64,000 bases of DNA from Seminavis robusta (lineage: Eukaryota; Bacillariophyta; Bacillariophyceae; Naviculales; Naviculaceae). Position 1 is the first letter of the stretch. Every line of letters begins with the position of its first letter. Positions 32,461 through 53,551 of the stretch are shown here, piece by piece. Location of the stretch: assembly GCA_903772945.1 (NCBI GenBank), contig CAICTM010000020.1, positions 62,001 through 126,000 of the forward strand, in the 5' to 3' direction. The position numbers and the translations under genes were made by a program. The notes under the pieces are model-generated. The model was not told the origin of the DNA. It saw nothing but the letters and a program-made list of their open reading frames with translations, and did no database searches.

Positions 32461-35126
32461 ATGACGGAACCGAGGACAGCCATGCAACATGAAGCCGCCA
32501 GCGGCGACGCCCCTGTGGATCGAGCGGTGTACCTCAAGAAAGAATTGGAAAACAGAGTTCAGACGGAACCAGCTCTTTTTGAGTTTATCCAAAGTGCTGC
32601 TTTGGATGGCTTGTGGTAAGACAGACAGATGGATAGATAGACAGACAGAGAGATGCTTGCTAGCTACGGTACCGGTAGGACGTGCCCTGTTACGCGATTG
32701 CCTTTCGTTCCTAACATTCATTGCTTGCTTGTGCGGTGCTGTAATGATACCGTAGGTACTGGGACCTTGAAAACATGGAGAACGAATGGCTGAGTCCAGA
32801 ATTCAAGGCACTCTTTGGCTACAAAGATGACGAAGTGCCCAACACGAGCGCCTGGTGGCAAGACAACATCCATCCCGAAGACAAGGATTTGGCCATTAAA
32901 AACTTTCAAGACCACGTGACCAGCGGCGTTCCCTACAGCTCGATTGTCCGGTATCGTCACAAGGATGGCTCGACCGTGTGGGTCCGGTGTCGAGGACAGG
33001 TACTGCGCAACAGTCAGGGAGTCCCCATTCGCATGCTGGGGGCTCACAATGACTTGACGCAACTCATGAAGATCCAACAAGAGCTCAAGAAAAAGGAGGA
33101 TGTTCTGGACATGCTCTGCACGACAGCTCTCGATGGATTTTGGGATTGGAACATGAAGACGGGAGAAAAGATTCTCAGTGTCCGATGGAAGAATGCTCTG
33201 GGATACGAAGAAGACGAACTCGAGAATACACTCGAAACCTGGGAGTCGCTCCTGCATCCCGATGACATGCCCAAGGCTCTGGCGGCACGGGAGAAACACA
33301 TGCAGGAGGGAGCTCCGTATTCTCAAGTGCTCCGATACAAGCGCAAGGATGGAACCATTGCGCACATGCTGGCACAGGGTGTGGCGCAAAAGGACGAACG
33401 AACGGGGGAATGGATTCGCATGTTTGGTACCCACACCGATGTGTCCTACCTCGAAGAAGCCCGCGCTGCCAAGGCCGCCAATCAGGCCAAGACCACCCTT
33501 CTGCGCACCATGAGTCACGAACTTCGCACTCCACTCAATGCCATCTTGGGCATGTCCGAGGTCCTGATGGGGACCAACCTGACTCCGGAACAACAGGAGT
33601 GCATGTCCACACTGCAGAATTCGGGAAAACACTTGCTCAGTGTCATTTCCGATGTCTTGGATTATTCCCAGTTGGAGAGTGGCAACCTAACCATCAACAA
33701 GTCCGAATTCAGCGTTCAAACATGTGTTCGAGACGTCGTCGCAGCACTAGGGTTGGAAGCGTCCAAGAAGAGTGTGGACTTGACGTTTGATTCGTCCATT
33801 GATGCTGGAGCCAAGTTTGTCGGTGATCCCGAACGAACGCGCCAAATTGCCTTTAATCTCGTAAGCAACGCCGTCAAGTTTACCAGTGAGGGTTCTGTCA
33901 ATGTATCCGTTTCGATCGAGCAAGACAAGGACGATCCACGCTTGAAGGGCGTCCGGGTAAACGTCAAGGATACAGGTTGTGGCATGTCACCCGATCAGCA
34001 AGCTGTCGTCTTTGATGGCTTTACCCAAGCGAGTGAATTGATTCAGCACCAATACGGAGGTTCGGGTCTTGGTTTGAGCATTAGTCAAAAACTCACGTCT
34101 GCCATGGGTGGCTCCGTCTCTGTCGAAAGTCAGCTTGGCAGAGGAAGCTTGTTTTCCGTGTGGCTACCGGGATTTGTTCCAGAGACAATACCGAAACGTT
34201 CTCTCGCAAAAACGACCAAAGTCATCTTGTATGACAAGAACGGAGCCCCTTTTGACGTTCTACAGGACGACTATGAACAAGGCTCAGCCACCAAGGCCAT
34301 TCGAGCTGCGGGCCTAGATGTGTACAGGATTTCAACCTTCTTTGAGCTACAGCAAACCTGTCGCCAGTCGTCCGTCGAAGCTGTGGCTGTTCCTTCCAAA
34401 GATGCTTGTTCGGACGAAATTCGGCAGTTTCTGGAGAAGAACAGCACGGCGCTACTTTTGGTCATTGGCAAGTGTCTCAAATGCAATCTACAAGAGTCAA
34501 AGTACAAGGATCGCGTGCTGACTGTCCCACACTTTCCAACCAGTGATGAGATCAAAGAAGCCATGTCGCTACATCGCAAGAAGGCCGCACCTCAATTGGA
34601 TCTTTACAACCTGGGGAATCCAGGGAGAGATTTGAGGGTGCTTCTCGCGGAGGACAACCATATCAACATCAAAGTCATGCGGAGGTTTCTTTCCAAGTTC
34701 CCCTGCAAGGTAGACGTCGCGTGCAATGGATTGGTAGCGGTTGAAATGGCAGGAAGAAACACATATGACATCATTCTTATGGATATGATCATGCCAGAGA
34801 TGGGCGGTTTGGAGGCAACACAGATGATTCGCCAGATAGACGACAAGACTCCGATTGTGGCATTGACGGCAAATGCAACTACTGATGACAGGGAAAGCTG
34901 CTTTGAGGCTGGAATGCATGACTTTTTGACCAAACCCATCAATCTGCAGACTCTTCGCAAGACATTGACGCGGATTGCTGACAGTGTCATTGAAAAAGAG
35001 CAGACCTTGGAAAAAAGAATGAAACCTTCCAAGACCAAGCTTGATCTTGGTTCTCCTGACAGCACATTCTCATTGATAACATTGGCCGATGGCGCGCAGC
35101 TCACTTATTCGACTGACGCTGCCTAA
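32461..35126 (+). CDS. Hybrid histidine kinase with two PAS domains and receiver
   Basis: Two-component sensor: autophosphorylates on His and relays to its own Asp. Exons 32461-32615 and 32756-35126 (841 residues). The short first exon ends LDGLW and joins YWDLENMENEW inside the first PAS domain (donor GTAAGA, acceptor accgtag, split Trp codon). Domains: PAS 1 ~43-155 (GYKDDE, HPEDKD, RYRHKDGSTVWVRCRG), PAS 2 ~165-280, HisKA with the H-box MSHELRTPLNA (His306), HATPase_c with Asn419 in FNLVSNAVKFT plus DTGCGMSP and GGSGLGLSIS, a linker, and a receiver ~670-795 with phospho-accepting Asp728 in ILMDMIMPEMGG and the TKP lysine. No transmembrane segment or signal peptide, so a soluble sensor. No flavin-binding LOV Cys motif (NCRFLQ) is visible, so the ligand or light cue is unknown. 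Confidence 0.94.
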
Positions 35127-50122: not shown

Positions 50123-51946
50123 ATGGTCATGTCAGAGCCCAAGCAGAGATTGTCCTCCACTTCTCATCAACTAGACAATCAAAGAGCAACGAGATCGTTA
50201 CTATGGAGATCTAACAGCGACGGCGATAGAAGCAAAAACCGTCGGGGTTTGCTCCATCGATTTCGCAACTGGCGGTACTACCGGACACTGGTAGTATTCT
50301 TGTCTTTATCGGTTGCTTCATGTATTCTTGTACTCTGGCGTCCATCCTATCATCCCTGGAACGAATACGTTCCTACGTCACCAACACAAGAAGAGGCAGA
50401 ACCTACCCATTCATCGAAGACACGAGGAAGACCTCTGAACATTCTGTTGCTGTATGCCGACGATTGGCGCCATGATTCCTTGGGAGTAGCTGGCAATCCC
50501 TTTGTCCAGACGCCCTTTCTCGACCAACTGGCGTCTCGAGGTATTCGATTCACACATAACTGTGTCACTACCAGCATTTGCTGGATGAGCCGGGCAACCT
50601 TGCACACTGGAATGTACGCCTCCCAGCACCACGGATGGATGCCAGATACACCGTATTGGTATCAGCATTGGTATCAGTCCTTTCCGTACTTGATGAAGAC
50701 GGCACAAGAATATGCCACGGTTCATGTAGGAAAATGGGATTGGAGCTATTTCCATGACATACGAGAAATCTTTGAGACTTATACCTTTTCTCGAATCTAT
50801 CAGGGGAAGCATTGGTATACCAAGGAAGAAGTGCTGGCAGACAATGTAGAACAGACCAAGGTCACAGGAGAACCACTCTACAACCAAGACAACTACCTTG
50901 TACACAACCACGAGACTGACCAGATCCACATTACCGACCGTACCGTCCACGATGCCATGGAATTCTTGAAACACAGACCAGACAATAAACCTTTCATGAT
51001 GACGGTTGCCTTCTTTGCACCTCACAGCGTTGACGGGACACAAGAACAGTTCTACCCTCAGCCAGAGACTGCTGCACACTATGACTTGCAGCGAGAACAG
51101 ATTATACCACCTGTTCCACCCGGGTTTGATATTGCTAGCATGAATGCTTCCTTTGACCGGTTACCGCCGAGCATCTTTCACGAAGAAGGCAACGAAGCCC
51201 GAGTCCGGTGGCATTTACGATTTGACAATACCACCAAATACAATGCCGCCATGCACAACTACTATCGCATGATTACAGGTGTGGAAAAGGCGTGTCAAAC
51301 TCTTGTGGAGGAAGTCCAACGTCAAGGCATTGAGGATGAAACCTTGATCATCTTTACCACCGATAACGGATTCTACCATGGAGAACACGGTCTTGCCGGC
51401 AAGTGGAATGCGCATGAAGAGAGTATACGGGTGCCCTTGATCATTGTGGATCCTCGTGCAGAACACTCGATGAAAGGAACTGTGCGGGATGAAGTTACAC
51501 TCAACATTGATTTGGCACCCACGTTGTTGGCTGCCGCCCAAGCCCCCATTCCGGCTCACATGCCAGGACGTGATCTATCAGAACTCTACCTAAGGAATGA
51601 TGACGACAATGCTGTGGATACCTGGAGGGACGAGTTCTACTATGAATATCCACAAATGTGGGATGCTGAGGATATCTTTTTACCGGCTTCGACAGCCTTG
51701 GTTCGCAAATCCTACAAGTACATCCAATGGGGTGCCAAGCCAGAACACCATGTGGAGCAATTGTTTGATCTTCGAAAGGATCCGAAAGAAGAGTCGGATT
51801 GCAGCGCCCTGCCGGAATATGCAAGCATACTGGAAGAGATGCGACAACGCCATGGCGAATTGAAGGAACAATACGGTGGGGATCTGTTGGGGTACCACAA
51901 AGTGAAAAGCCATGGTTCCTCCTGGCTTCCAAAAGAAAGCAGGTAA
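50123..51946 (+). CDS. Sulfatase, type II membrane/secretory
   Basis: Predicted sulfate ester hydrolase (alkaline-phosphatase-like fold), 607 residues, single exon. One hydrophobic anchor at ~55-73 (LVVFLSLSVASCILVLW) puts the enzyme in the secretory lumen or outside the cell. Calcium-binding Asp113-Asp114 lie in YADDWRHDSLG. The formylglycine motif is ICWMSRATLHTG with Cys153; the position usually filled by Pro or Ala is Met. Further motifs: HVGKWDWS, FFAPHSVDG, TDNGFYHGEHGLAGKW and RVPLIIVDP, all in sulfatase order; the C-terminal subdomain shows YKYIQWG and QLFDLRKDPKEE. Candidates for substrate are sulfated polysaccharides of the diatom cell surface; this is inference. Conversion of Cys to formylglycine would need a host FGE enzyme. 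Confidence 0.92.
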   Translation: MVMSEPKQRLSSTSHQLDNQRATRSLLWRSNSDGDRSKNRRGLLHRFRNWRYYRTLVVFLSLSVASCILVLWRPSYHPWNEYVPTSPTQEEAEPTHSSKTRGRPLNILLLYADDWRHDSLGVAGNPFVQTPFLDQLASRGIRFTHNCVTTSICWMSRATLHTGMYASQHHGWMPDTPYWYQHWYQSFPYLMKTAQEYATVHVGKWDWSYFHDIREIFETYTFSRIYQGKHWYTKEEVLADNVEQTKVTGEPLYNQDNYLVHNHETDQIHITDRTVHDAMEFLKHRPDNKPFMMTVAFFAPHSVDGTQEQFYPQPETAAHYDLQREQIIPPVPPGFDIASMNASFDRLPPSIFHEEGNEARVRWHLRFDNTTKYNAAMHNYYRMITGVEKACQTLVEEVQRQGIEDETLIIFTTDNGFYHGEHGLAGKWNAHEESIRVPLIIVDPRAEHSMKGTVRDEVTLNIDLAPTLLAAAQAPIPAHMPGRDLSELYLRNDDDNAVDTWRDEFYYEYPQMWDAEDIFLPASTALVRKSYKYIQWGAKPEHHVEQLFDLRKDPKEESDCSALPEYASILEEMRQRHGELKEQYGGDLLGYHKVKSHGSSWLPKESR

Positions 51947-52303: not shown

Positions 52304-53551
52304 CTACAGGAACGACGCCGCCAATAGCACCATTGCGCTGGTCGTCATCATAGTCATGCCATTCACCAACAGTGCCGCTGATTCTTTCATTTCCTCATCA
52401 TCCGTATTCGTATCAATGACTTGTCCCGTGGCTGCGGAAATAGTGGGGCCTCGATACAGTCCATGCACGTTGCACCATTCATAGGCAGTCAATGTGGTGG
52501 CATTGGATGGCACCTCAAATTGGATTTGTGCAATATCGACATTGGATGGATTCAAGGATTGCATGGTCAAAATGGTGCCATTTTGGTCGACCACATAGAC
52601 ATCCGTGATCCAATGTGGTTCCTCGTTCAACAAATCTCTTGACGAACCCTTCATGACGTGATAGTTCCCCTCGACGCCCACAGTGACAGTGGCAGTTCCA
52701 TTGTCGTGCAATTGAATGTACGGAGTGTGTTTGGTTCCTACCGTATTCCATATTTCAATCAATTATGAATGTTGTGGCAAGAAACGTCAGTGAGAATGCA
52801 AAACCCCAACAATAATAACAAAAAGAAAGCAGCTCTCGCACTTACCATCTTCTTCATCGTAGGGTTCCAATGAGTTGAAGGGCGGCAGTGATTGTCGCCT
52901 GACAAAATCCGCAGCAAAAGAATCAAACGCCACCGGGACGGGAGAATCCACATGGCACATCATGGAAAACTCCATGGCTGCAGATGGATCATCGCCCGCT
53001 CGTTCCACAGCCGCCACTGTTGTTGCGTTATCCACTTGTCCCAACAATGGCGTCTCCACGGTAGGACCCATCCAGAGTCCATGTAGATTGCAGAATTCAA
53101 ATGCCGTCATTGCCGTGACATCCTCGGGGACCTCAAAGACCACCGTGGCGGGTGCCGCTTGATTGGGATCCATCGTCTCAACAGCAAAGATTTGATTGTT
53201 TTGATCTACCGCATAGATGTGTGTAATGAAATGGACCGTCGTGGGATTGTCACTGGCCACCATGGGATGATATACACCACCCACATCATCTCCATTGCCC
53301 ACAATCACCGTGGCCAGTCGAGTGGATGCATTGAAGAAGGAAAAGGGAGTGTGCTTGGTGCCGTCTTCCACGTCAAACGGTCCATTGCTGCCCCATTCGT
53401 CCGTTTGTCGACGAACCAAATCTTGATGGACCGTCAGACAATAAACGTCTTGGCTACTGCTGCTAGCGTCATCTTGCTGTTGTCCGTGTACAGAACAAAA
53501 CACGGTGCTCCATACCAGAAACAACAACAACAACCGAACCGCTGCGGACAT
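52304..53551 (-). CDS. Secreted protein with two superoxide-reductase (desulfoferrodoxin)-like domains and a GPI-type tail
   Basis: Exons 52846-53551 and 52304-52737, 379 residues; the donor GTAAGT and acceptor acggtag join EEDG|TKHTP, the same phrase that opens the first domain (VEDGTKHTP), so the join is well supported. Parts: signal peptide 1-23, domain 1 ~62-165, linker, domain 2 ~234-335, and a hydrophobic C-terminal tail after a small-residue stretch, as in GPI-anchor signals. Each domain keeps the five residues that bind the mononuclear iron of superoxide reductases: His67, His95, His107, Cys154, His157 and His239, His262, His277, Cys324, His327, in the order KHTP, YHPM/YHVM, H-F/W-I, CNLHGLW/CNVHGLY. 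The loop between the second and third His is longer than in bacterial enzymes, and the usual Glu before KH is Gly. Role at the cell surface (superoxide or iron handling) is inference. Confidence 0.8.

Follow-up and report, generated by a model that had tools for sequence, protein, structure and literature searches.

Superoxide reductase (SOR) domains have their usual home inside anaerobic microbes, where they destroy superoxide and need an intracellular electron donor, rubredoxin and the like. The Lys before the first His ligand (His1) is important for the superoxide reactivity of these enzymes, and a Glu caps the ferric site. The class II or 1Fe-SORs (neelaredoxins), known from Giardia intestinalis (4d7p), Archaeoglobus fulgidus, and Nanoarchaeum equitans, consist of one domain and lack a signal peptide, and the desulfoferrodoxins (Dx-SORs, or 2Fe-SORs) of anaerobic bacteria carry an N-terminal desulforedoxin Cys4 centre I. 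Exported bacterial enzymes are defined as the TAT-SOR class in SORGOdb, which reported N-terminal signal sequences previously undescribed for bacterial SOR and, as of 2010, listed just three SOR genes from eukaryotes (PMC3116461). The SORs of diplomonads were acquired laterally (PMC6934886), and a 2023 survey, in its passages on these enzymes, gives SOR annotations for the diatoms Pseudo-nitzschia fraudulenta and Seminavis robusta and the haptophyte Pleurochrysis carterae and calls for enzyme assays (PMC10128935).

The gene discussed here lies in a 64-kb window, the whole stretch of S. robusta DNA that was analyzed, and encodes a predicted secreted protein with two SOR domains. A sequence-only reading of this DNA had described SORs as mainly cytosolic and rare in eukaryotes. 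The second statement needs qualifying in view of the diatom and haptophyte annotations, which name the same enzyme in survey passages that give no analysis of architecture, location, or site (PMC10128935); exported TAT-SORs, for their part, are an already recognized bacterial class (PMC3116461). SOR annotation in diatoms is already known; the secreted tandem form is apparently new to the literature, where we found no report of a secreted tandem SOR in a search that covered subscription journals thinly.

Each known class resembles the window protein in part. The 1Fe-SORs share its fold (Z of 10.6 to 11.1 to 4d7p) and its His4Cys site, and neither has a desulforedoxin domain; the window protein differs in being tandem and secreted, in having a C-terminal tail, and in carrying Thr for the Glu. 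The Dx-SORs are nearest by identity, up to 40% for domain 1 and 37% for domain 2, whereas the window protein lacks their centre I, and those retrieved have the EKH sequence, five residues between the second and third His ligands (His2 and His3), and no signal peptide. The TAT-SORs have export in common with it, and in those found the Glu is likewise not directly before Lys-His, but they are single-domain proteins with a twin-arginine signal and a spacing of 5, and our tree does not place them as sisters of the window domains.

Gene architecture and family membership

The coordinates given in the sequence-only reading proved correct, with the gene on the minus strand and in two exons. The features of the gene and its spliced product of 379 aa are as follows.

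52304..53551, minus strand: whole gene, start to stop codon; tandem SOR-domain protein (PF01880 E=1.8e-18)
52846..53551, minus strand: exon 1, with the signal peptide, domain 1, and the linker to the DG preceding TKHTP of domain 2 (spliced reading)
53483..53551, minus strand: signal peptide, residues 1-23 (MSAAVRLLLLFLVWSTVFCSVHG), from the sequence and a hydropathy peak at residues 1-23
53060..53362, minus strand: SOR domain 1, residues 64-164 (PF01880 36.2 bits; AF2 model; VIA Z 10.6 to 4d7p)
52738..52845, minus strand: intron of 108 bp, GT-AG (GGTAAGTG...GGTAG), with an in-frame stop if kept
52304..52737, minus strand: exon 2, with domain 2, the hydrophobic tail, and the stop (spliced reading)
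52439..52735, minus strand: SOR domain 2, residues 237-335 (PF01880 35.0 bits; AF2 model; VIA Z 11.1 to 4d7p)
52307..52384, minus strand: hydrophobic C-terminal tail from about residue 354 to the stop (hydropathy; helix predicted in the model)

Among the acceptor AGs tried, a single one leaves the frame open through both domains as far as the stop codon at 52304. Upstream of each SOR domain there is a short extension with VRRQ and one additional Cys (C38 and C199); the remaining Cys residues are C19, in the signal peptide, and the ligands C154 and C324, with no others. Retention of the intron (52738-52845, minus strand) would give a 254-aa secreted product that contains domain 1 but neither domain 2 nor the C-terminal anchor, and an alternative soluble one-domain form made in this way is conceivable. 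A six-frame search of the 64-kb window revealed no further SOR domain.

Against Pfam PF01880, whose gathering score is 22.2, the whole protein reaches 67.4 bits (E=1.8e-18), and in the profile search that the sequence-only reading had proposed as a check, each half exceeds that score alone. The two domains are homologous, as had been supposed, with 47% mutual identity over the core. The NCBIfam model for the desulfoferrodoxin ferrous iron-binding domain, TIGR00332, gives 53.0 bits, under its curated cut-off of 61.9, so the tandem SOR protein is a divergent relative.

AlphaFold2 models of the separate domains have a mean pLDDT of 71 (domain 1) and 78 (domain 2), with a beta core that is mostly confident and a poorly determined His2-His3 loop in both (pLDDT about 50 to 60). 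All Foldseek matches in the PDB at E<=0.001 are SORs, 21 for domain 1 and 14 for domain 2. The best VIA-align match for both domains is the Giardia 1Fe-SOR, followed by SoxYZ chains (Z of 9 to 10) and other Ig-like folds, as expected for such a sandwich. In the domain 1 comparison, SoxYZ and SOR rows tie by Z and are told apart by sequence identity and Foldseek E-value. The SOR beta-sandwich is thus predicted for both repeats, and a different fold, named beforehand as the refuting outcome, did not appear. The modeling alignment held bacterial SORs, so that the models are no independent test of homology; the Pfam scores do not depend on the models.

The iron sites and their descent

The residues of the predicted iron sites were located by alignment and are encoded as follows.

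53351..53356, minus strand: domain 1 Lys66-His67 (His67 is ligand 1)
53231..53269, minus strand: domain 1 His95 to His107 (ligands 2 and 3), with 11 residues between
53081..53092, minus strand: domain 1 C154-N-L-H157 (ligands 4 and 5)
52727..52732, minus strand: domain 2 Lys238-His239 (His239 is ligand 1)
52613..52660, minus strand: domain 2 His262 to His277 (ligands 2 and 3), with 14 residues between
52463..52474, minus strand: domain 2 C324-N-V-H327 (ligands 4 and 5)

The sets are thus K66 H67 / H95 / H107 / C154 H157 in domain 1 and K238 H239 / H262 / H277 / C324 H327 in domain 2. We compared both domains with 114 prokaryotic SOR sequences from genome contigs and samples of whole genomes, collected via the conserved Cys motif and profile matches, which make up a sample and no census of all SORs. 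One contig scan contributed 80 bacterial SOR loci, and an earlier scan with other patterns had given no confirmed relative, probably owing to the choice of patterns. All five ligands (His1, His2, His3, Cys, and His4) are invariant in 114/114 rows and in both window domains, in agreement with the complete KH...H...H...CNxH set described in the sequence-only reading. The Lys directly preceding His1 is also kept in both domains, as in canonical SOR.

Two features set the window domains apart. At the position before the Lys, 109 of the 114 rows have Glu and both window domains have Thr (GTKH); the loss of the Glu had been noted correctly, but its replacement had been read as Gly, which stands one residue further upstream. 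The loop between the second and third His had been called longer than in bacterial enzymes, and so it is: 11 residues in domain 1 and 14 in domain 2, compared with 5 in every prokaryotic row (114/114), including the P. furiosus, P. horikoshii, and A. fulgidus sequences. Judged from the alignment, this insertion is the most unusual feature of the protein, because the loop sits between two iron ligands. The Glu is not needed for the SOR fold, since the E12Q and E12V mutants of A. fulgidus SOR have solved structures, which are among those matching both models. Its loss, together with a loop 6 to 9 residues longer beside the iron, could alter or abolish reactivity.

In a maximum-likelihood tree of 116 rows and 87 columns, which is poorly resolved, domains 1 and 2 are sisters with support of 100/99 on a long stem. 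They are each other's closest relatives, and so arose by duplication. The same tree joins the window domains with no donor group. The sequences are best accounted for by a prokaryotic-type SOR that was probably acquired once and then duplicated internally, and the longer His2-His3 loops and the loss of the Glu are probably departures from the prokaryotic type. We found no relatives in plasmids, phages, or viral contigs; 22 viral stretches matching DGTKHTP at the DNA level contain no SOR domain, and a planctomycete frame of 2906 aa matched by the profile was a false positive.

The exported twin-arginine bacterial SORs in the sample form a separate group, with KKH or QKH (one GSH) and a spacing of 5. 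A common origin of these proteins and the window protein is unsupported, as the tree does not join them. Export combined with an altered Glu position seems to have arisen more than once, because the twin-arginine SORs also show it, and an exported environment may relax the Glu position; few lineages were observed in either respect.

Several bacterial loci are of interest in their own right. The clade of exported twin-arginine SORs comprising L144-L155, L107, and L108 has EKKH (EQKH in L108) for EKH, which places the Glu one residue further upstream while the spacing is still 5. Locus L083 (frame from 1039, plus strand), from the planctomycete phylum, combines an RR signal and a lipobox-like LWGC with an SOR domain in which Glu and Lys are both replaced (EGSH) and His4Cys is kept, possibly an exported SOR-like protein with changed chemistry. 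In locus L087, from the same phylum, the SOR follows an N-terminal rubredoxin-like CxxC module in one fusion protein and has GDKKH for EKH.

Location, proposed function, and alternatives

The signal peptide and the hydrophobic C-terminal tail named in the sequence-only reading are both apparent from the sequence and from a hydropathy scan. The signal peptide has the h-region LLLLFLVWSTVF and is likely cut between VHG and QQQ, after residue 23. This N-terminal signal (MSAAVRLLLLFLVW...) has no twin-arginine RR motif. Its likely cut site also lacks the Phe that marks the ASAFAP signals of plastid proteins, and we therefore consider plastid targeting unlikely. The tail is short and moderately hydrophobic (15-residue mean 1.77) and runs to the C terminus with no cytosolic residues after it. 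It probably serves as a GPI-signal-like sequence or a membrane anchor that keeps the protein membrane-attached, and a GPI anchor is plausible. N-glycosylation sequons are not enriched (5 observed versus 2.8 expected, p=0.14).

Computation shows that the protein is an SOR homologue with the SOR fold and ligands, that its domains arose by duplication, and that it has a signal peptide and a hydrophobic tail. The best explanation is a secreted, surface-held tandem SOR whose Fe(His4Cys) centers react with extracellular superoxide, a reading to which we give about an even chance. Iron loading, surface location, superoxide as the substrate, and the electron donor are the parts of it that we infer. 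The protein, made from a nuclear eukaryotic gene, would leave the cell by the secretory route and stay attached to the surface through its C-terminal tail, and each SOR domain would build a mononuclear Fe(His4Cys) center. With the iron reduced, its sixth position open, and the Lys retained, each center would convert extracellular superoxide to hydrogen peroxide. That the five ligands and the Lys are kept in both domains despite only 47% mutual identity speaks in favor of this reading. The iron would then be re-reduced by a surface or external reductant, possibly a surface ferric reductase or small reductants. Re-reduction is the weak step: we know of no comparable SOR electron donor outside cells, and no electron-donor gene was seen among the window neighbors examined. 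The superoxide would come from the cell's own flavoenzymes, at the surface of an oxygenic alga. Extracellular superoxide production is widespread in phytoplankton (PMC12684733), and cells also break superoxide down at their surface (PMC6640029).

Surface removal of superoxide by marine phytoplankton has been measured, and the enzymes are mostly unnamed apart from SODs; a secreted SOR-type algal protein would be a concrete candidate. If the reading is true, the range of SORs extends from anaerobic cytosols to the oxygenated cell surface, which raises the question of where the electrons come from. We suggest, tentatively, that there could be a eukaryotic class of cell-surface SORs, with tandem Fe(His4Cys) sites, an enlarged loop, and no Glu cap, in which electrons cross the plasma membrane to reduce extracellular superoxide and an outward superoxide flux is linked to iron reduction or peroxide signaling.

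The alternative that survives best is that the tandem centers bind or redox-cycle surface iron, for capture, delivery, or sensing, and destroy no superoxide. The probable exposed location, the lost Glu cap, the enlarged loop beside the site, and the presence of two sites within one chain would all suit such a role, as would the reliance of diatoms on surface iron systems. We nonetheless consider it unlikely, as iron is a fixed cofactor in known SORs and the Lys kept in both domains is there for superoxide chemistry, not iron binding. Rather improbable, too, is that the fold has been kept with another metal (Zn, Cu, or Mn) or another chemistry (NO, peroxide, or SOD-like dismutation). Proteins of the secretory pathway often acquire a metal other than Fe(II), and the second sphere of the site is changed, but the full His4Cys set typical of Fe SOR is invariant in both window domains as in all 114 prokaryotic rows.

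It is improbable, in our estimate, that the tail is a plain transmembrane segment of the ER, vacuolar, or periplastid membrane and that the protein works inside the cell: its shortness, its moderate hydrophobicity, and the unenriched sequons would fit this, whereas its GPI-signal-like stop at the C terminus and a likely signal cleavage site lacking the plastid-type Phe speak against it. A gene-model or contamination artefact, suggested by the mainly prokaryotic occurrence of SORs, can practically be dismissed, because a GT-AG intron with one working acceptor among those tried lies between two domains that diverged together on a long stem, and because its surroundings are eukaryotic: the window also codes for a myosin head (584 bits), a sulfatase, and a kinase of the hybrid PAS-histidine type.

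Two of these neighbors may be described further. The sulfatase (PF00884 and SGSH_C; 50123-51946, plus strand) is convergent with the SOR gene and has an N-terminal hydrophobic segment, so that it is possibly secreted or at the surface. The hybrid sensor kinase (32748-35123, plus strand) has PAS, HisKA, HATPase, and response-regulator domains in a single long frame.
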